From: Sialis fuliginosa
Taxonomy: Eukaryota > Arthropoda > Insecta > Megaloptera > Sialidae
DNA: 64,000 nt
Assembly (NCBI GenBank): GCA_961205875.1
Contig: OY540812.1
Span: 186,001 to 250,000, forward strand
Direction of reading: 5' to 3'
In this document: in pieces, positions 1,862-61,560 of the stretch
Position numbering within the stretch: the stretch's first letter is position 1
Layout of the letters: every line of letters starts with the position of its first letter
The notes under the pieces: generated by a model
The model's input: only the letters and a program-made list of their open reading frames with translations
What the model was told of the DNA's origin: nothing
The model's database searches: none
Translations under genes and position numbers: made by a program

Positions 1862-1866
1862 ATATG

Positions 1867-1990
1867 AACATTTGATTGTTGGGGTTGAATACCGCGTTGC
1901 ACTTTATTGTCACTTGACGTTTCGACCAACATCTCGTGGTCTTCTTCAGAAGAATGCAACGCGGTATACAACCCAACAATCAAATGTTTA
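1867..1990 (-). ncRNA. Fold-back module with a hammerhead-ribozyme-like core
   Basis: Read on the minus strand. The pieces occur in the order expected for a type I hammerhead: an outer 12-bp stem (complement of 1955-1966 with 1890-1901, TACCGCGTTGCA), an inner CTT/AAG helix (1950-1952 with 1913-1915), core CTGAAGA (complement of 1943-1949), a GACC/GGTC stem II (1938-1941 with 1924-1927) with one extra base before it, core GAAAC (complement of 1919-1923) and a cleavage-type triplet GTC (1916-1918). Stem III is absent as an internal hairpin, but ACGT is self-complementary, which is the layout of dimeric minimal hammerheads. A further inverted repeat (about 1867-1890 with 1966-1988) surrounds it. 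Such ribozymes are known from Penelope-like retroelements. Activity is untested. Confidence 0.55.
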
Positions 1991-2519
1991 TACAATTGAA
2001 TAACCGCGAAAGTCTACGTTCAAAAATTATTAAGTATGGTTAATAAAATTAATTTTTTTAAACTGAATTAATAATTTTTTTTCATATAATTTATTTAGTG
2101 CCCAATGATAAGTTACATGATGACTTCATTATAAGTCATTTGAGTGTCATTTTAGTTTACAATTAATCAAAATGCTTAAATTGAGTGACTTACTGTCTTT
2201 TATTTCTGGAAAAAAAATCAGTAAGATGTGGTTTTACTGCATTTGTATTCTGTAACAGAACTAGTGCTTTTTTCCACTGTTTTAAATATGTAAATAGTTG
2301 AGAGGTAAAACACAGTAATGCAGAATAAAAATTCAGTTGAGATCAAAATAAAAATCAATAATCTTTGTGGATTACAAAATCTTAAATAGTAAATAACATT
2401 TATTGATCTTTGTTGAACAAATAACGAAAAATTAATTTGTATGGCTCTTAATAATTATAAAGTGATTGAAGAATAATTACATTGAAAAAAAAAAAACTGT
2501 ATTATTTAAATGAAGTATA
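1991..2519. other. AT-rich sequence, nothing recognised
   Basis: Low-complexity A/T tracts only; no coding frame and no family seen elsewhere in the window. Confidence 0.45.
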
Positions 2520-16789: not shown

Positions 16790-16990
16790 AATGTGGTATG
16801 TAATTTTTCGTGACAGTAAGAACGGCGTGCGTGACGTCGTTATGTAGAGGTAGAGGGTACGGAGGCGCGTGATGTAACCTGGACAGCGTGACCAGAGTGT
16901 CAAAGGCGAACCCGCTGGGCATCGAACCCGTGCCCGTGTCAACTAACATACAACTTCCACGCTCAATAGCTTCTCGTATGAGCTCTGTAT
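16790..16990 (-). mobile_element. Possible tRNA-derived SINE fragment
   Basis: On the minus strand, GGTTCGATGCC (complement of 16918-16928) matches an RNA polymerase III B box, and an A-box-like segment sits about 35 bases upstream. No second copy in this window and no full tRNA fold, so this is tentative. Confidence 0.3.
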
Positions 16991-17545
16991 ACTTTTATGA
17001 TTTACTTCTCAGGCCGTGCCACTGATTGTGGAAATTGATACGGAGAGAATGCAGTGGCGCCCTAGAAAAAAATGGCAAAAAAAAATTTTTTTTACATTTG
17101 AAAAATATTTGAAAAATTATTTTCAAAAAGGGGAGCTCGACTCTTGACACGTTCTCGTATGAGCTGTATTGTTTTATGATTTACTTCTCAGACCGTGTCA
17201 CTGATTGTGGAAATTGATACGGAGAATGCAGTGGCGCACTAGAAAAAAAATTCCATTCAATTGTACAACTTACGAAATTTGAAAAAAAATATTTTTTTTA
17301 CATTTGAAAAATTATTTTCAAAAAGGGGAGATCGACTCTTGACATGTTCTCGTATGAGCTGTTTTGTTTTATGATTTACTTCTCAAGCCGTGTCACTGAT
17401 TGTGGAAATTGATACGGAGAATGCAGTGGCGCACTAGAAAAAAAGTCAACCAATTGTACGATCTATAAAATTTCAAAAAAACATATTTTTTTTTTACATT
17501 TAAAAAAATATTTGTGAAAAATGGTTTTCAAAAAAGGGAGGGGGT
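16968..17545 (+). repeat. Three-unit tandem repeat, about 180-195 bp period
   Basis: Units start at TTCTCGTATGAGCT near 16971, 17152 and 17346. Each carries TGATTTACTTCTCA, GCCACTGATTGTGG-type and AATTGATACGGAGA, GCAGTGGCGC, then a poly-A/T part and AAAAAGGGGAG. The unit contains GCAGTGGCGC as in hAT ends, so it may be an amplified transposon fragment. Confidence 0.85.
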
Positions 17546-26804: not shown

Positions 26805-27350
26805 TTAAAAATATTAGTTGATATTTGATTACATTTTTAAAACCAATGTTCAGGGTAGATCTGTGTCATTATTTTGGAGCCGATGTGAACATACGTGATT
26901 GGATACGGTAAAAAATAATTTAATTTCTTGTTTTCTTATCTTTCAGATGATATTTCTGTGAAATTTTTAAAAATTTTATTATAATAAATATTGTAAAAAA
27001 AATTCTCCTTAAAAATCCCTCTGTCTGAAAACAACACAATACATGGGGGGGGGGGCTAAATACATGTTCCATGAAGGTATAACGCGTCACTGAAAAAGTA
27101 CACATATATAAATTCATAGCTGAAATAAAATCATGTCGATTTAAATTGCAGGGTTTGAATTTTCGGTTCTAAATTATAAACATTGTTGCCACAACACAGT
27201 TAATTAATAGTATCAAAGTGAATGAAATATTCAGCATACCAACGGCGTAATAACCTTAAATAAATCATCAACAATCGAATATCCAAAAATCATTTTGTAT
27301 TTTATAAGATCAATACTTTCTGAAAACATAATTAAAACATGACATAATTC
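26805..27350. other. AT-rich sequence, nothing recognised
   Basis: A G-run at 27046-27055. The minus-strand frame at 26920-27117 has no recognised feature. Confidence 0.4.
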
Positions 27351-27351
27351 T

Positions 27352-27466
27352 TGAGGCTTCCGCGGTGATCTTTGGCACTTTGTCCACTGCAATGTGTGAC
27401 GAAACGTTGGCCGACAACACGACCAAACCGACGCGGTTTATACCCAGAAGCCAAGATCCATAACAT
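27352..27466 (+). repeat. Family K module (Penelope/hammerhead-like), core degenerate
   Basis: Contains TGTCCACTGCAATGTGTGAC, GAAACGTTGGCCG and the arm GACGCGGTTTATACCCAG ending AGAAGCCAAGATC, which pairs with GATCTTTGGC upstream. The CTGA part of the core is lost. Confidence 0.6.
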
Positions 27467-28752: not shown

Positions 28753-29300
28753 CATCAGTAAAAATATGAAAACGTTTTTAACATTTGATATCCGAGTCAC
28801 TTGTATCAAAGAACACGTGTCTGAAGGAATGCTGCAGATGTGGTCCAGCATGTAACACACACACACACGCACAGAGAAAGGGGCGTCTTGAACCGCAAGT
28901 CCGGTAGCCGGCAGGCGAGCCTCTGGTCAGTAATGACGGCGCCCACGCCCCCCCTCAAACCGTGAGTTAACATATATGTGTAGAATGGATTTGTAATATG
29001 TATTGTTGATAATATAAATAATACATGTAATTGTAGTTTTGTTAGTAGCTAGTGAGTACAATACTGGAATCTTGGGTATTATGATATAGGGGGGGAGGGG
29101 GGGGGAGTTAGGGGTCAGATTAGACATAAAAAAGTATCACTTTGAATTCTAGAGGTTGTAAAGAAATATAATTTTCTGACTCTTGGTTTATAAGAAGTAA
29201 AAGATATAAGTTAAAAGATTTTTTATTTTTCCGTTTATATAAAAAGGCTTTTAAACACGTTTTACATATTTACTTAAATTATAATTTTGATTGTACAAGT
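28753..29300. other. Unique sequence with GC patch and G-run
   Basis: (CA)n near 28855-28870, a GC-richer patch to 28970, and a G/A-rich run at 29088-29111. Short minus-strand frame is Pro-rich from the C-run complement. Confidence 0.4.
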
Positions 29301-29301
29301 C

Positions 29302-29423
29302 TTGAGGCTTCCGCGGTGATCTTGATTTCGGCCAACGTTTCGTCACACATTGCAGTGGACATCTTCATAGGGCTCTTCTAAAACGACCAAACCGACGCGG
29401 CTTACACCCAGAAGCCAAGATCT
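29302..29423 (-). repeat. Family K module, longest arms
   Basis: Read in reverse: AGATCTTGGCTTCTGGGTG, GCCGCGTCGG, TGAAGATGTCCACTGC, GTGTGACGAAACGTTGGCC, GATCACCGCGGAAGCCTCAAG. Stem II pairing GTC..CAC with GTG.GAC is kept; the first core base is altered (ATGAAGA). Confidence 0.6.
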
Positions 29424-33945: not shown

Positions 33946-34008
33946 CGTGGTAGTAGCCCTGAAGATTTCCACTGCTATGTGTATTGAAACGTTGATCGAT
34001 AACACAGG
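33946..34008 (+). ncRNA. Family K hammerhead-like module, core retained
   Basis: CTGAAGA at 33959-33965 and GAAAC at 33986-33990, followed by GTT. Between them CCAC..GTG can pair, with weak closing pairs. Candidate Penelope-type hammerhead, probably decayed. Confidence 0.4.
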
Positions 34009-34181: not shown

Positions 34182-34280
34182 CCGTGGTAGTGTCGTAATA
34201 AGAACCCTGAAGATGTCCACTGCTATGTGTATTGAAACGTTGGCCGATAGCACAACCAAATTGACTTGTATAGTTTTGAA
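34182..34280 (+). ncRNA. Family K hammerhead-like module, best K core
   Basis: CTGAAGA at 34207-34213, stem II GTCCAC/GTG..., GAAAC at 34234-34238 and GTTGG, with CC before the first core able to pair with GG after it. The layout is that of a minimal type I hammerhead with self-complementary AACGTT for dimer formation. Activity unknown; the GTT triplet is less usual than GTC. Confidence 0.45.
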
Positions 34281-35915: not shown

Positions 35916-35917
35916 CC

Positions 35918-35990
35918 GGTGTTATCGGCCAACGTTTCGTCACACATTGCAGTGGACATCATCACTCTTTTAGAAGAACCCTCATATAAA
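35918..35990 (-). repeat. Family K module
   Basis: Reverse reading: GATGATGTCCACTGC, TGTGACGAAACGTTGGCCG, ATAACACCGGCTTGG. Stem II is intact; the first core base is G rather than C. Confidence 0.5.
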
Positions 35991-41012: not shown

Positions 41013-41299
41013 GTATATTAAAAATTACCTGTTAAGTTATACATTTAGTAAAATTTAGATATTAAATATTTAGATTGAATACTAAATATTGTTCTTAAAT
41101 TAAGTAAATAATATTTTTAGCGAAATAAAACTTGTTAAATTAATATTATTAACGGTGGAAATTTTAAATCAAAAATGGGCCATTTTAAGCAATAATTATA
41201 CACCATTAAAATCATTATTTCAAGTCGCTCCGAATGGTGTTTTCAACATAGCTATTCAATGGACTTATATTACAGTAAAACTTCTGTCATACTGACTAA

Positions 41300-42060
41300 A
41301 ATCAATGATGTACACAAGTAGCTTAATACCCCCCCCCCCCCCCTCTAGAAATATCTAAAGACCTTACAAAATATTATAAAAAATTAAATTAATTATTCTT
41401 TCTTTGATTTATGAAATATTAGTTTTATAACGTATATTATATTAATTTTTATATAAAAATCAATGATGTACACAAGTAGCTTCATCCCCCCCCCCCCTCT
41501 AGAAATATCTAAAGACCTTACAAAATATTGTAAAAAATTAAATTAATTATTCTGTATTTGATTAATTAAATATTAGTTTTTTAACGTATATTATATTAAT
41601 TTTTATATAAATATCAATGTACACAAGTAGCTTAATACCCCCCCACCCCTCTCTAGAAATATCTAAAGACTTTACAAAAGAACGTAAAAAATTAAATTAA
41701 TTATTTTTTATTTGATTAATGAAATATTAGTTTTATAACGTATATTATATTAATTTTAATATAAAAAAATGATGTACACAAGTAGCTTAATACCCCCCAC
41801 CCTCCCCCCCTCTCAGAAATATCTAAAGACCTTACAAAATATCGTAAAAAATTAAATTAATTATTGTTTATTTGATTAATTAAATATTATATTAATTTTT
41901 ATATAAAAATCAATGATGTACACAAGTAGCTTACCCCCCCCCCCCCCTCTAGAAATATCTAAAGACTTTACAAAATATCGTAAAAAATTAAATTAATTAT
42001 TCTTTCTTTGATTTATGAAATATTTAGTTTTATAACGGATTATTAATTTTAATATAAAAA
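41300..42060 (+). repeat. Five-unit tandem array, about 155-bp period, each with a C-run
   Basis: Units begin at GATGTACACAAGTAGCTT (or close variant) near 41307, 41464, 41617, 41771 and 41914. Each has a C-run of 7 to 15, TCTAGAAATATCTAAAGAC and ATTAAATTAATTAT. Units differ by few substitutions, suggesting recent amplification. Confidence 0.9.
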
Positions 42061-43036: not shown

Positions 43037-43224
43037 TATGTGTATACATGCTTGTGAAGTTATACCGGCATATTCTTCTATACGAGTTAAAATTTAGTGC
43101 AAAGTATTAAAATTTATGTTTGAGTGTAAAAAGTGCATACTATCAAAATTTTTAGTGCAATTATCTATAAATATGAATGAATATTATAGAAATAATTATT
43201 GTATCTTTAAGTAAAGATTGGGTA

Positions 43225-43945
43225 AGAGGGGGGGGGGGCTTCATCAAAATCTTATAAATCATTTAAAGGACGCGTGTGGCTAGAAAATTTCAAAAATTAT
43301 AAAATTTTAGTGGCATTATTTTTAAGGGGGGTGGAGAGTTCATCAAAATCTTATAAATCATTTAAAGGACGCGTGGGGCTAGAAAATTTAAAAAATATAA
43401 AATTTTTAGTGCCATTATTTTTAAGGGGGGGGGGAGTTCATCAAAATCTTATAAATCATTTAAAAGACGCGTGGGGCTAGAAAATTAAAAAAATATAAAA
43501 ATTTTAGTGCCATTATTTTTAAGGGGGGGGGGGGGGGGAGAGTTCATCAAAATCTAATAAATCATTTAAAGGACGCGTGTGGCTAGAAAATTTCAAAAAT
43601 TATAAAATTTTAGTGCCATTATTTTTAAGGGGGGTGGAGAGTTCATCAAAATCTTATAAATCATTTAAAAGACGCGTGGGGCTAGAAAATTTAAAAAATA
43701 TAAAAATTTTAGTACCATTATTTTTAAGGGAGGGGGGGGGGGGAGAGTTCATCAAAATCTTATAAATCATTTAAAGGACGCGTGGGGCTAGAAAATTTAA
43801 AAAATATTAAATTTTTAGTGCCATTATTTTTAGGGGGGGGGGGGGGGAGAGTTCATCAAACTCTTATAAATCATTTAAAAGACGCGTGTGGCTAGAAAAT
43901 TTCAAAAAATATAAAAATTTTAGTGGCATTATTTTTAATATATAT
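43225..43945 (+). repeat. Seven-unit tandem array, about 100-bp period, each with a G-run
   Basis: TTCATCAAAATCTTATAAATC (or variant) recurs near 43241, 43338, 43437, 43542, 43640, 43748 and 43852. Each unit carries GACGCGTG.GGCTAGAAAAT, GCCATTATTTTTA and a G-run of varying length. In-frame translations repeat the same peptide and are not genes. Confidence 0.92.
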
Positions 43946-45858: not shown

Positions 45859-46799
45859 CAGTGGTGGCTCGTCAGGGTTTTCATTGTTATATATATATAT
45901 ATAAAAAGTATTAAATAATATCTGTAATCTAGTGTTTATAAGAACTTATTTCTGTATCAGAATTCACGTCTAAATATTATATTTTAAATATAAATACATA
46001 GATTATTATCTTTAATTAATATAACATGGTATTTATTTTAAAAAATACATTAAATTATAAAAATTGTGTTTTCTACATATTCTGTAATTTTTACAGCTTC
46101 GTAAAACTATTTGTATAGCATACGTTCTTTTCGATCGAATTTAATTAAATTTATAGTGTCAATATATATATAATAATATAATAGTAGTGACGTTAAAATA
46201 TTATATATAATTATTTTCAAAATTTCAGAAAAAATGTTTCAGTCAGGCGAAAAAGGGCGCTAAATATTGATACTACGGCGTGACGTTAGAAAGGTTCCCT
46301 TGAAGGGTTTTCAGGTTTTCTTTTTCAAATCAAAATTTAAACCTATATTTTTGTTACAGATTCGTAATTTAAATATTTTTAAAAATGTCCATTTTTTTTA
46401 TATGGAGCAAACTAAACAATAATTTTTTACTCGAAAACTATCAATTGGACGTTTTTATTTTAATTGTTACAGAAAAGTAGATTAAAAAAAATAATACCAT
46501 TAATTTTAATAGCAGTGAAAAAAATTGATTTCCTATTTTTCGGTTTTAGAATTCTACAGGACAAGTTTTATAAAATATTTATTCTGATCAAATTTTTAAT
46601 TTCGAATTATAACTAACGCCTGGAAAAATGACACGGCCTGCGCCTGACTTTAATTCAAATACCTATATCTCATTCAAATTTACATTATTCAACATTTATA
46701 TTAAGATATTATAATTAAATAAATAAATGTATTAATAAAATCATATCTAAGTAACTAATTTGACTGTTTAAAAATAAAGATCTAAACGAGCCGCTACTG
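45859..46799. mobile_element. Old hAT-like remnant, about 940 bp, upstream of the POU gene
   Basis: CAGTGGTGGCTCGTCAGG at the left and CGAGCCGCTACTG at the right are imperfect inverted ends. No 8-bp duplication and no transposase frame remain. Confidence 0.45.
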
Positions 46800-48381: not shown

Positions 48382-49599
48382 ATGTCCGCGGCGACCTACC
48401 TGCCGGCGTCAGGAGATCTAGATGGCTCCGTGGTCGGTATGAACGTGCTCGGTCACTACGGCGGCGGAGGCGCCGGCCACGGAGGCGGCGGGGCTTCACC
48501 GCGCTCCGCCGCCGACGCCGGCGAGATGAAGTACGTCCCGACACAACACCACCATCACCACCACCACCATCACCAGGTGGCCAGTTCGCCGTCGCCCGGG
48601 AACCATCCGGTATCGCATCCGTGGGTCAGTCTGCAAGCGGGCGCCGCAGACCCGTGGGCCGCGTCGATGGGAATGCACAGCCACCACCAGGACGTGAAAC
48701 CGTTGCAGGAGCACCATCACCGTCAGCAGCAGTGGCACTCGCCGGCCGCGCATTACAACCCGGGTGCCGGCAGTCCGCTGCAGCACTATCACGCCGCTAT
48801 GAACGGCATGCTGAGCCACCATCACCAAGCGGCGGCCGCTGTCGGACCCGGTGGACAGATGCACCACGCAGTCGGTGCTCTCAGAGATATGCATTCACCG
48901 GGGGCCCTTCACGGTCACGTGCCCTCGCATCCCTCCGAGAGAGACGTCAGCGGCGGTGAAGAGGACACGCCGACTAGCGACGACTTGGAGGCGTTCGCTA
49001 AACAGTTTAAACAACGTAGAATCAAGCTGGGTTTCACCCAGGCGGACGTGGGGCTCGCGTTGGGAACCTTGTACGGTAACGTGTTCTCCCAGACCACGAT
49101 ATGTCGTTTCGAAGCGCTCCAATTAAGTTTTAAAAATATGTGTAAATTAAAACCCCTGTTACAAAAATGGTTGGAGGAGGCCGATTCAACGACAGGGTCA
49201 CCGACGTCTATTGATAAGATAGCGGCGCAGGGACGCAAGAGAAAGAAACGAACGAGTATCGAAGTTAGCGTTAAAGGTGCTTTAGAACAACATTTTCATA
49301 AACAACCTAAACCAAGTGCACAAGAAATCTCATCGTTAGCGGACAGTTTACAGCTTGAAAAGGAAGTGGTTAGAGTTTGGTTTTGTAACAGAAGACAGAA
49401 AGAGAAGCGGATGACGCCGCCGAATACTTTAGGGGGCGAGATGATGGATGGTATGGGAGCACCCCCGACACACATGCACGGGGGTTACCACCACGCGGAC
49501 ATGCACGGTAGTCCTATGGGCGGCCAGAGTCACAGCCACTCGCCGCCCATGTTGAGCCCTCAAGCGATTGCCGCGGGTCACCAATTAGCTGCACACTAG
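48382..49599 (+). CDS. vvl: Class III POU-homeodomain transcription factor (vvl/drifter/POU3F type), single exon
   Basis: Nuclear sequence-specific DNA-binding protein of 405 residues. Seen: a Gly-, Ala- and His-rich N-terminal region with nine consecutive His at residues 56-64; a POU-specific domain at about 194-268 with the recognition-helix motif [11 protein letters not shown] at 236-246; a short linker at about 269-285; and a POU homeodomain at about 286-345. The homeodomain has a basic N-terminal arm (RKRKKR) and the helix-3 motif WFCN at 333-336, with Cys at homeodomain position 50 as in all POU proteins, followed by RRQKEKRM. The tail is Met-, His- and Gly-rich and ends GHQLAAH. Known: in flies this class directs tracheal, glial, neuronal and wing-vein development, and class III genes are often intronless, as here. 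The start chosen is the first in-frame ATG after a TGA at 48322-48324; its context is weak (C at -3), and Met19 is an alternative. No frameshift or missing key residue. The first half uses GC-rich codons, and the codons become more AT-rich from about 49100. Orthology to vvl is inferred from the domain class. Confidence 0.95.
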
Positions 49600-56034: not shown

Positions 56035-57005
56035 ATACTAGTCGTACATACATACAAATCATGCAATAAACCGCTAAAGTGTTAATAAACGTCAAGGAAC
56101 TGTCTTATAAGATTGATTCCACGTTTAAAAATCTTTGCAAGCTAATTTTTTTTATAATACTGGACATTTTGTATTTTAATTTCGTATTTAGTCTATCGAT
56201 TGAATATCTTATGAAGTTAGTACTCGCAAATACATACAATAAAACAATAAAGTGTTAATAAACGTCAAGGAACTGTCATATAAGTTTGATATCCCGTTTT
56301 AAAGTGCTTACAAACTAATTTTTAGTTTTTTCTGGATATTTATATTTTAATTTCATATTTAATCTATTAATCGAATGTCCTATGAAGTTAGTACTCGTAC
56401 ATACATACAATAAACCAAAAAAGTGTTAGTAAACGTCAAGGAACTGTCATATAAATTTGATACCCCGTTTTAAAGTGCTTGCAAACTAATTTTTAATTTT
56501 GTTTTGGATATTTATATTTTAATTTCATATTTAATCTATTGATCGAATGTCTTATATAATTAGTACTCGCACATACATATAATGAACCAATAAAGTGTTA
56601 GTAAACGTCAAGGAACTGTCGTAAATGTTTGATACTCCGTTTCAAAGTGCTTGCAAACTGATTTTTAGTTTTTTTTTTGATATTTATATTTTAATTTCAT
56701 ATTTAATCTATCGAACGAATGTCTTATGAAGTTAGTACTCATACATACATATAGTAAAACAATAAAGGGTTAATAAACGTCAAGGAACTGTCGTATAAGT
56801 TTGATACCCCGTTTTAAAGTGCTTGCAAACTAATTTTTAGTTTTTTTTGGATAGTTAATCTATCGAACGAATGTCTTATGAAGTTAGTACTCGCACATAC
56901 ATACAGTAAAACAATAATGTGTTAGTAAACGTCAAGGAACTGTCATATAAGTTTGATATCCCGTTTTAAAGTGCTTGCAAACTAATTTTTTCGATTTTAA
57001 TTTTA
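56035..57005 (+). repeat. Six-unit satellite, about 172-bp period
   Basis: AACGTCAAGGAACTGTC recurs near 56089, 56262, 56433, 56606, 56777 and 56927. Other unit markers are CCCGTTTTAAAGTGCTTGCA, ATCTAT.GA.CGAATGTC and ATGAAGTTAGTACTCG. The last interval is about 150 bp because of a deletion. Confidence 0.92.
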
Positions 57006-60854: not shown

Positions 60855-60968
60855 ACAAGTCTTGAGGCTTGGCTTCTGAAGAATCAGAGTCCACTGCAAT
60901 GTGTGACGAAACGTTGGCCGAAAACACGACCAAACCGACGCGGCTTACACCCAGAAGCCAAGATCTAT
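60855..60968 (+). ncRNA. Family K hammerhead-like module
   Basis: CTGAAGA at 60876-60882, GTCCACTGCAATGTGTGAC, GAAAC at 60908-60912, GTTGGCCG, then arm GACGCGGCTTACACCCAG and AGAAGCCAAGATCT. Extra bases (ATCAGA) sit between the first core and stem II, so the fold is probably impaired. Confidence 0.4.
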
Positions 60969-61560
60969 ATTAAATAGCGCGGGTATTCTATTCAGTCGAG
61001 AATAAAGTTTTAATATAAAACACTTTTCATATTCCACATATGATAATTAATGTATTTCATTTGCATATGCTACAAAAAAAAAATAAATAAATACACCTGT
61101 TATTTTTCTAGGCAAATAAAAAAACAAGCGTAAATTTTGTACGAATGCAAAATAATATACCGTTATGCAGTAGTGGATATCAATATACACATATATATGT
61201 TGATGTTAAAAACGCCCCTATTAAACGCGGTGAAAAAAAAACCTGCACAAACTAGATATTTACAATTTAAATTTTATACAATTTCAGATACGGTTATAAA
61301 ACAGAACAGCATAATGTATCATCATGAAGCTACCTACATTCACTGTATTTAATTTATCAAATATTATTATGTGTATTTTGCTAAAAACACTTATTTTTTA
61401 TAATATATGCAAACATTAAGTCGGTTATTTATATATAGATTGTATTCTTTTTGTTCTATCGAATTCGTGCATAAAATGGTAAACTTTGTTAAGTGATAAA
61501 TGATAAATTAAAAACAGTTTTTATGCCACACAAAAAACCAAGTCGTGGATCATACACATA
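60969..61560. other. AT-rich gene-free stretch
   Basis: No repeat family; the 71-codon frame at 61137-61352 has no feature. Confidence 0.4.

Follow-up and report, generated by a model that had tools for sequence, protein, structure and literature searches.

A Penelope-like relic in Sialis fuliginosa with a minimal hammerhead motif and inverted repeats suggestive of two target-primed reactions

The 64,000-nucleotide stretch of Sialis fuliginosa DNA analysed here (GCA_961205875.1, contig OY540812.1, positions 186,001 to 250,000; hereafter the window) contains a short inverted-repeat module whose minus strand reads like a hammerhead ribozyme. This raises three questions: whether the fold is real, to what kind of element it belongs, and how its two arms came to lie in inverted orientation. 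We consider it very probable that the module is a dead 162-bp insertion of a Penelope-like element (PLE), with one minimal type I hammerhead and with inverted repeats that stem from two target-primed reactions. By itself, the locus is ordinary for a PLE-rich genome.

A preliminary description of this DNA had recognised on the minus strand, correctly arranged, every piece that a type I hammerhead requires. Reading positions 1952-1913 letter by letter confirms this, and the pieces are as follows.

1913-1952, minus strand: hammerhead core, CTT - CTGAAGA - A - GACCA/TGGTC - GAA - AC/GT - C (1916) - AAG
1952-1950, minus strand: 5' strand of stem I, CTT
1949-1943, minus strand: CTGAAGA
1942, minus strand: extra base A before stem II
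1941-1937 and 1928-1924, minus strand: stem II, GACCA paired with TGGTC, 5 bp
Loop II of the core, minus strand: CGAGATGT
1930-1932, minus strand: ATG in loop II, the likely start of the PLE open reading frame (ORF)
1923-1921, minus strand: GAA
1920-1917, minus strand: stem III, AC/GT, a zero-loop ACGU
1916, minus strand: C, with the predicted cut on its 3' side
1915-1913, minus strand: 3' strand of stem I, AAG

Stem II was described earlier as GACC/GGTC; these pairs are present, and the stem is 5 bp long, one pair more than the four then given. The self-complementary, loopless stem III is there as ACGU and matches the minimal PLE hammerheads as reviews portray them. The window letters contain the core CUGANGA ... 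GAA with A15.1-U16.1, and they depart from the canonical type I form in two respects, a stem III without a loop and an insertion between A9 and stem II; because of this zero-loop ACGU and one extra base, we do not class the core as a canonical type I hammerhead. A single match to the core pattern CTGAAGANGACC-N4..30-GGTCGAAACG exists in the 64-kb window, and none of 100 shuffles contains one. Rfam and core pattern scans of the window, including its four tandem arrays (16971-17521, 41298-42060, 43223-43938 and 56060-56990, with periods of about 195, 154, 99 and 172 bp), returned no Rfam hammerhead and the core pattern only at 1952-1913. From the ATG in loop II, the frame of the window's own family (F1) begins MLVETSSDNKVQRGIQP.. 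and resembles the frame MRVETSSLKIRQRGQQP.. of a second family (F2), so that the terminal repeat outside the core looks like the beginning of a PLE ORF.

The covariance-model check that had been proposed for this fold went the other way. The Rfam hammerhead models gave no match at gathering score in the whole window or in 11 relative loci, and no hammerhead match was obtained when 1840-2060 was scanned with E values up to 10. The matches that this permissive scan did return, microRNA hairpins, a Yfr17 and a SNORD74, lay far below gathering scores and were rejected as generic hairpins because the six alignments shown pair the arms of the inverted repeat. Furthermore, energy minimisation folds the window copy into a plain hairpin and not a hammerhead (full arm, –63.7 kcal/mol against –57.0 kcal/mol with the core enforced). 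The missing Rfam match (window, 1840-2060 and 11 relative loci) and the plain hairpin as best single-strand fold are what speaks for a chance assembly of hammerhead-like pieces in an unrelated inverted repeat, such as a foldback element or MITE. We read the missing match instead as a limit of the Rfam models, since relatives with covarying stems fail Rfam as well; the motif would then be a ribozyme readable from the raw sequence where standard models miss it.

These relatives were sought in 20 further loci around divergent GIY-YIG matches, which were scanned for cores. A core was present in 14 of them, and the core scans of the other six found none or weak candidates only. For 15 of the 26 GIY-YIG matches listed in these 20 loci, the core lies 61-236 nt downstream on the same strand. 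The scan was keyed on CTGANGA, GAA and some required pairing, so the core letters are invariant by construction and the pairing counts lean towards structure; the position of the core downstream of GIY-YIG ORFs is independent of that key. With F1 included, nine motif families were recognised in this one genome. The inner four pairs of stem II read GACC/GGTC, GACT/AGTC, GGGC/GCCC, GACT/AGTC, GATA/TATT, GCTG/CGGC, GATT/AATC, GAAT/ATTC and GTCC/TGAC. Stem III reads ACGT in five families and ACACGTGT in another two; of the remaining pair of families, one has AGCT and the other a longer form.

MAFFT misaligned the families with a longer stem III, and covariation was therefore counted on rows cut to equal length. 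Among the nine families, 88.9% of the cells on these rows are paired, a proportion that falls to 21-38% when the partner is slid by 1-3 columns, and 31 cells carry double changes against a shuffled mean of 9.8, a value reached by 0 of 500 shuffles. The number of pairs with any double change is only mildly above control (9 vs 6.1, reached by 7 of 500 shuffles). In stem II, 97.2% of the cells are paired and three of the four pairs show changes on both sides; position 10.1 is G in all nine families, opposite C in eight and T in one. Stem I at family level has double changes in all five of its pairs, with 77.8% of cells paired. A15.1-U16.1 is A-U in 9/9 families, and H17 is never G (C, C, T, C, A, T, T, A, T), one of the three core scans having excluded G at this site. 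In the seven families whose position links them to a GIY-YIG ORF, 70 of 77 cells are paired. The compensatory changes in stems I, II and III thus support a real hammerhead motif in these PLE families, and conservation and covariation across divergent families bear out the hammerhead reading with which this work began.

Two families, F7 and F8, have no positional tie to a GIY-YIG ORF. Three shuffles of the loci in blocks produced no match at a score of at least 20, one at 18 or more and three at 16 or more; F7 scored 18, level with one shuffled match, and F9 was found only by a relaxed scan that had no null of its own. F7 could be a separate small element with no tie to the PLE ORF. A 36-bp fragment in the window (46162-46197, minus strand) matches sequence lying some 90 nt downstream of the F7 core.

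The single extra base before stem II had been mentioned in the preliminary description, which treated it too cautiously. It is present in the window and in 9/9 families (A, A, T, G, T, T, T, A, T), which makes it a shared trait of these ribozymes rather than a flaw: a one-base core variant kept across nine motif families of one genome. One divergent locus (L065) carries an inverted pair of cores at 1477 (minus) and 2219 (plus) with a 7-bp stem II and a possible 5-bp stem III closed by a 4-nt loop, which brings it closer to a complete type I hammerhead.

The core is also repeated throughout the genome. In a search of 392 Mb on 20 contigs, the core alone (34 nt, up to 3 mismatches) had 172 + 151 = 323 matches against 0 for a reversed control, and the window query had at least 114 matches with 40 of 414 first-look candidates scored. 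A chance assembly would be hard put to account for these 323 copies, for a pattern found in 0/100 shuffles, for a core whose three stems show compensatory changes and which adjoins GIY-YIG ORFs across divergent PLE families, or for the tail at one end described below, which a DNA transposon would not leave; we consider it highly improbable.

Of 38 places inspected, 17 had the core (up to 6 edits) on both strands and so in each of the inverted arms, 20 had it on a single strand and one lacked it. Longer copies have coding sequence between the arms. One of them (L012) encodes a GIY-YIG-like peptide that itself has at least 151 genome matches (150 of 886 candidates scored), and another (L051) carries the family's 303-aa frame with the reverse transcriptase (RT) motif YVDD, followed by a GIY-YIG region. 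Pfam found no domain in the 303-aa frame alone. Aligned over 303 positions, this frame shares 46% identity with a 974-aa PLE ORF in which Pfam detects RVT_1 (1.1e-16) and, below its cut-off, GIY-YIG (5.8e-4). A frame with YVDD and GIY-YIG that is 46% identical to an ORF with Pfam RVT_1 identifies F1, by its sequence, as a Penelope-like element, and the window copy as a short relic of it. The link to Penelope-like elements drawn earlier is thereby substantiated by GIY-YIG and RT coding sequence in longer copies, the RT having been read in one copy. The F1 copies read here are all less than full-length, and the window copy has no coding sequence beyond the ORF start. The ends of the window copy agree as well, with a 30-nt tail and a 12-bp target-site duplication (TSD) where a tail of 30-40 bp and a short TSD are the mark of PLEs.

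This identity bears on two further readings. A MITE or foldback DNA transposon, suggested by the terminal inverted repeats, was rejected in view of the GIY-YIG and RT coding sequence between the arms and of the tail at one end. The second reading, a non-autonomous retrozyme, would be a small hammerhead repeat spreading through circular RNA and unrelated to PLE coding sequence. The feature is indeed short, high in copy number and of the type I hammerhead kind, and such elements occur in many animals (PMC7229834). Yet PLE coding sequence lies between the same arms in longer copies of the family, and the 24 copies in which both ends could be recognised are inverted insertions, 19 of them with clear flank duplications, not tandem repeats; we therefore give a retrozyme very little credence.

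Other PLE traces and unrelated features lie nearby. Partly decayed matches to the F9 hammerhead region occur in the window at 33955-34005, 34201-34260, 35917-35976 (minus strand) and 60889-60973; to the left of the match at 60.9 kb, inspection by eye shows a short stretch resembling a tail (about 60856-60870), and CTGAAGA in this match falls at or near the junction. Near a contig start (C10:2264-40799), PLE units with 896-aa open frames recur about every 3.6 kb in an array that flips its orientation midway and is possibly a chromosome-end array. The window also holds, at 48382-49599 (plus strand), a 405-aa ORF in a block of 50% GC; this is a POU homeobox gene, with a POU domain and a homeodomain (Pfam 1.6e-38 and 6.1e-20).

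How the inverted shape arose can be approached from the limits of the insertion. A 12-bp direct repeat, ATTATTAAGTAT, absent from the preliminary description, flanks the module. Because this exact repeat bounds everything, the inserted piece is 1864-2025, 162 bp long, with the core enclosed by inverted repeats in two stretches of 26 nt (88%) and 20 nt (95%). The parts of the insertion, with the cDNA arms and RT start sites as we interpret them, are as follows.

1852-1863: left target-site duplication, ATTATTAAGTAT, an exact 12-mer found only at 1852 and 2026 (94% as a 16-mer)
1864-1952, minus strand: B arm, putative cDNA from a proximal RT start site (B) to just upstream of the core, reaching template position –91
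1953-1954: junction of the two presumed cDNA arms, 2 nt, the element length minus the summed arms being 2
1955-2025, plus strand: A arm, putative cDNA from a distal RT start site (A), stopping 40 nt past the end of the repeat
1996-2025, plus strand: PLE 'tail' of 30 nt, ending ..GTTCAAAA, at the A end only
2026-2037: right target-site duplication, ATTATTAAGTAT, an exact 12-mer

The outer 12-bp stem I of the preliminary description does not survive this reading, since its pairing is the inverted repeat produced by the insertion, in the two stretches given above. What the window copy retains of stem I has been cut down to 3 bp, because the B cDNA arm appears to have ended just upstream of the core. 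The same arm end makes the window core energetically worse than a native one: the isolated 59-nt core of the window has a minimum energy of –13.9 kcal/mol against –5.7 kcal/mol with the hammerhead enforced, whereas the isolated core of a native family copy differs less (–13.2 vs –11.9 kcal/mol). Judged by its letters, the window copy is probably a weak ribozyme or an inactive one, and activity, if any, would be expected from native family copies. The Anolis PLE hammerhead showed no cleavage without the PLE protein (PMC11167929).

The unequal ends of the window copy recur throughout the family. Both ends were classified at 46 places (49 loci, with 3 duplicates dropped). An A end runs to a fixed point, ..GTTCAAAA, and a B end stops about 30 nt earlier, near ..TATACAA. 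Each of the 24 two-ended copies combines an A end with a B end, none being A/A or B/B, while independent choice at the observed end frequencies would give about half mixed pairs. The A end is on the right in 14 of these copies and on the left in 10. Flank strings of at least 8 nt are shared in 19 of the 24, compared with 41 of 552 mismatched flank pairs. Only one end was recognised in 21 other places (13 A, 8 B), and no end in one place. A search for a tail opposite the 13 A ends found no second tail at any, and a tail lies opposite the B end in two of the eight B places (L038 and L049). Two other families gave readable A/B ends: one F2 copy (L060) with a TSD of 15 and a tail of 32 nt on one side, and one F4 copy (L076) with a TSD of 12 and a tail of 31 nt; a further four inverted pairs could not be read. 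Two PLE relics of F9 in the window likewise have a tail at one end only, at 27336-27461 with a flank match of 11 nt (or of 8 nt adjoining the tail) and at 29296-29422 with a flank match of 16 nt.

Site A falls at ORF nt 102 and the predicted cut 17 nt into the ORF, which places A 85 nt past the cut. Site B is put at about ORF nt 72 by arithmetic; the first TATACAA of the ORF, at 48, is not site B.

The arms were measured against one copy used as a 498-nt ruler, in 22 copies (21 of the 24 pairs and L040). The A arm reaches 40-498 nt along the template and the B arm 58-498 nt, and the two are unequal in length in 21 of 22 copies. Their sum equals the element within –8 to +14 nt in 18 of 22, exceeding it by 34-224 nt in the other four. 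In 22/22 copies the arms cover an overlapping region of the template, which contradicts twin priming of the L1 kind on one RNA, where the pieces would not overlap; twin priming may nevertheless apply to L035, whose A arm consists of hardly more than the tail, and to the F9 copy at 27.3 kb. Diagnostic variants are discordant at 6 of 65 comparisons between the arms of one copy and at 944 of 2730 between copies. Since the arms usually share these variants, both would come from one source, and the alternative of two different template RNAs per insertion is mostly contradicted by the same 6/65. In L040 the arms differ at two diagnostic sites and the right end is ragged.

These measurements also bear on self-priming, in which a genuine PLE hammerhead element would owe its inverted shape to a cDNA or antisense RNA folding back on itself. 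Such an origin would explain why both arms usually share diagnostic variants (6/65 vs 944/2730 discordant), and it was put forward in 2013 for rotifer PLEs (PMC3846280). It does not lead one to expect arms that are equal in only 1 of 22 copies and joined by simple end-to-end joining within –8 to +14 nt in 18, and it leaves unexplained why in 24/24 the second end should stop at a fixed point about 30 nt before the first; moreover, in Anolis the purified PLE protein acts on both strands, cutting and extending them (PMC11167929). On balance we think self-priming unlikely, if less remote than the other alternatives weighed here.

The simplest account is a pair of target-primed reactions, one for each broken strand, which started at different sites and whose products were truncated and joined. 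The RNA of the source element would run from the pLTR through the hammerhead to the ORF start; loop II would hold the ATG, and the cut would fall 17 nt inside the ORF. Intact source elements would use the ribozyme to cut a tandem or read-through transcript, probably as a dimer held by the self-complementary ACGU stem III and perhaps aided by the PLE protein. At an AT-rich target, both strands would be cut about 12 nt apart, and each 3' end of the target would prime reverse transcription on element RNA, with site A, the distal one (ORF nt 102), as the start of one cDNA and the proximal site B (about nt 72) as that of its partner. Truncation of each cDNA, followed by joining of the pair, would leave inverted repeats with the tail at one end only. 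The fold pieces, the covariation, the PLE identity, the TSD, the two end positions and the unequal arms from which we start are read directly in the letters; that the ends mark RT start sites, and that the steps followed in this order, we infer from them.

A bolder proposal is that every inverted-repeat PLE insertion arises from two target-primed reverse transcriptions, one at A and one at B and never from one site twice, and towards this we incline by a narrow degree. If it is true, the tail is no longer optional, being the fixed offset of 30-32 nt between the two reactions, as an asymmetric dimer working on RNA from a single source would be expected to produce. With the hammerhead cut placed 85 nt upstream of site A, cleavage would then determine whether an arm can run past the ORF start. 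The one-A, one-B rule would turn an 'optional tail' into a measurable constraint on the insertion of a poorly understood class of eukaryotic retroelements. We regard this end rule as the part worth following, and the purified PLE protein reported earlier makes it open to direct testing.

The hammerheads of PLEs, their inverted pLTRs and the 'tail' have all been described before, and F1 adds a new family to this known anatomy. PLE hammerheads are reported without helix III (PMC6155905) and as possibly cleaving as dimers (PMC7761336). The cores found here resemble the minimal PLE hammerheads (Cervera and de la Pena, 2014; Lunse, Weinberg and Breaker, 2017), as reviews present them, in their type I order, in their missing or self-complementary stem III and in their site in PLE terminal repeats. 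Set beside these minimal hammerheads as they appear in reviews, the Sialis families have one extra base between A9 and stem II in 9/9. A hammerhead with an extra A, between A9 and G10.1, is said to have been described by De la Pena and Flores in 2001 in chrysanthemum chlorotic mottle viroid. In that viroid the extra base reportedly belongs to one ribozyme, whereas here it is a trait of nine families.

The Penelope elements of the rotifer Adineta vaga resemble those described here in their inverted pLTRs, one of which bears a tail, and in an ORF that starts within the pLTR (PMC3846280). The same paper calls the tail optional and ascribes the inversion to self-priming, whereas in Sialis the tail is on one end in 24/24. 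A rule of different start sites for the two ends was not found in the PLE literature searched, which covered few subscription papers.

The closest comparison is with PAc, a Penelope/Poseidon element of Anolis carolinensis (PMC11167929). The pLTRs of PAc were reported as direct tandem repeats, whereas all 24 two-ended copies in Sialis are inverted, and PAc showed no apparent difference in start site between the strands, in contrast to the one site per end of these 24 copies (PMC11167929). In other respects the two systems are alike. The ORF of PAc starts at stem II, with its start codon there, and the cut falls inside the ORF in both (26 nt in PAc, 17 nt here); PAc, too, has two RT start sites with a 'tail' between them (PMC11167929). 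Its protein cuts and extends both target strands, as we propose for Sialis, and from the cut to its commonest RT start (ORF nt 111-118) the distance is 85-92 nt, a range that includes the 85 nt between the predicted cut and site A in the family described here (PMC11167929).
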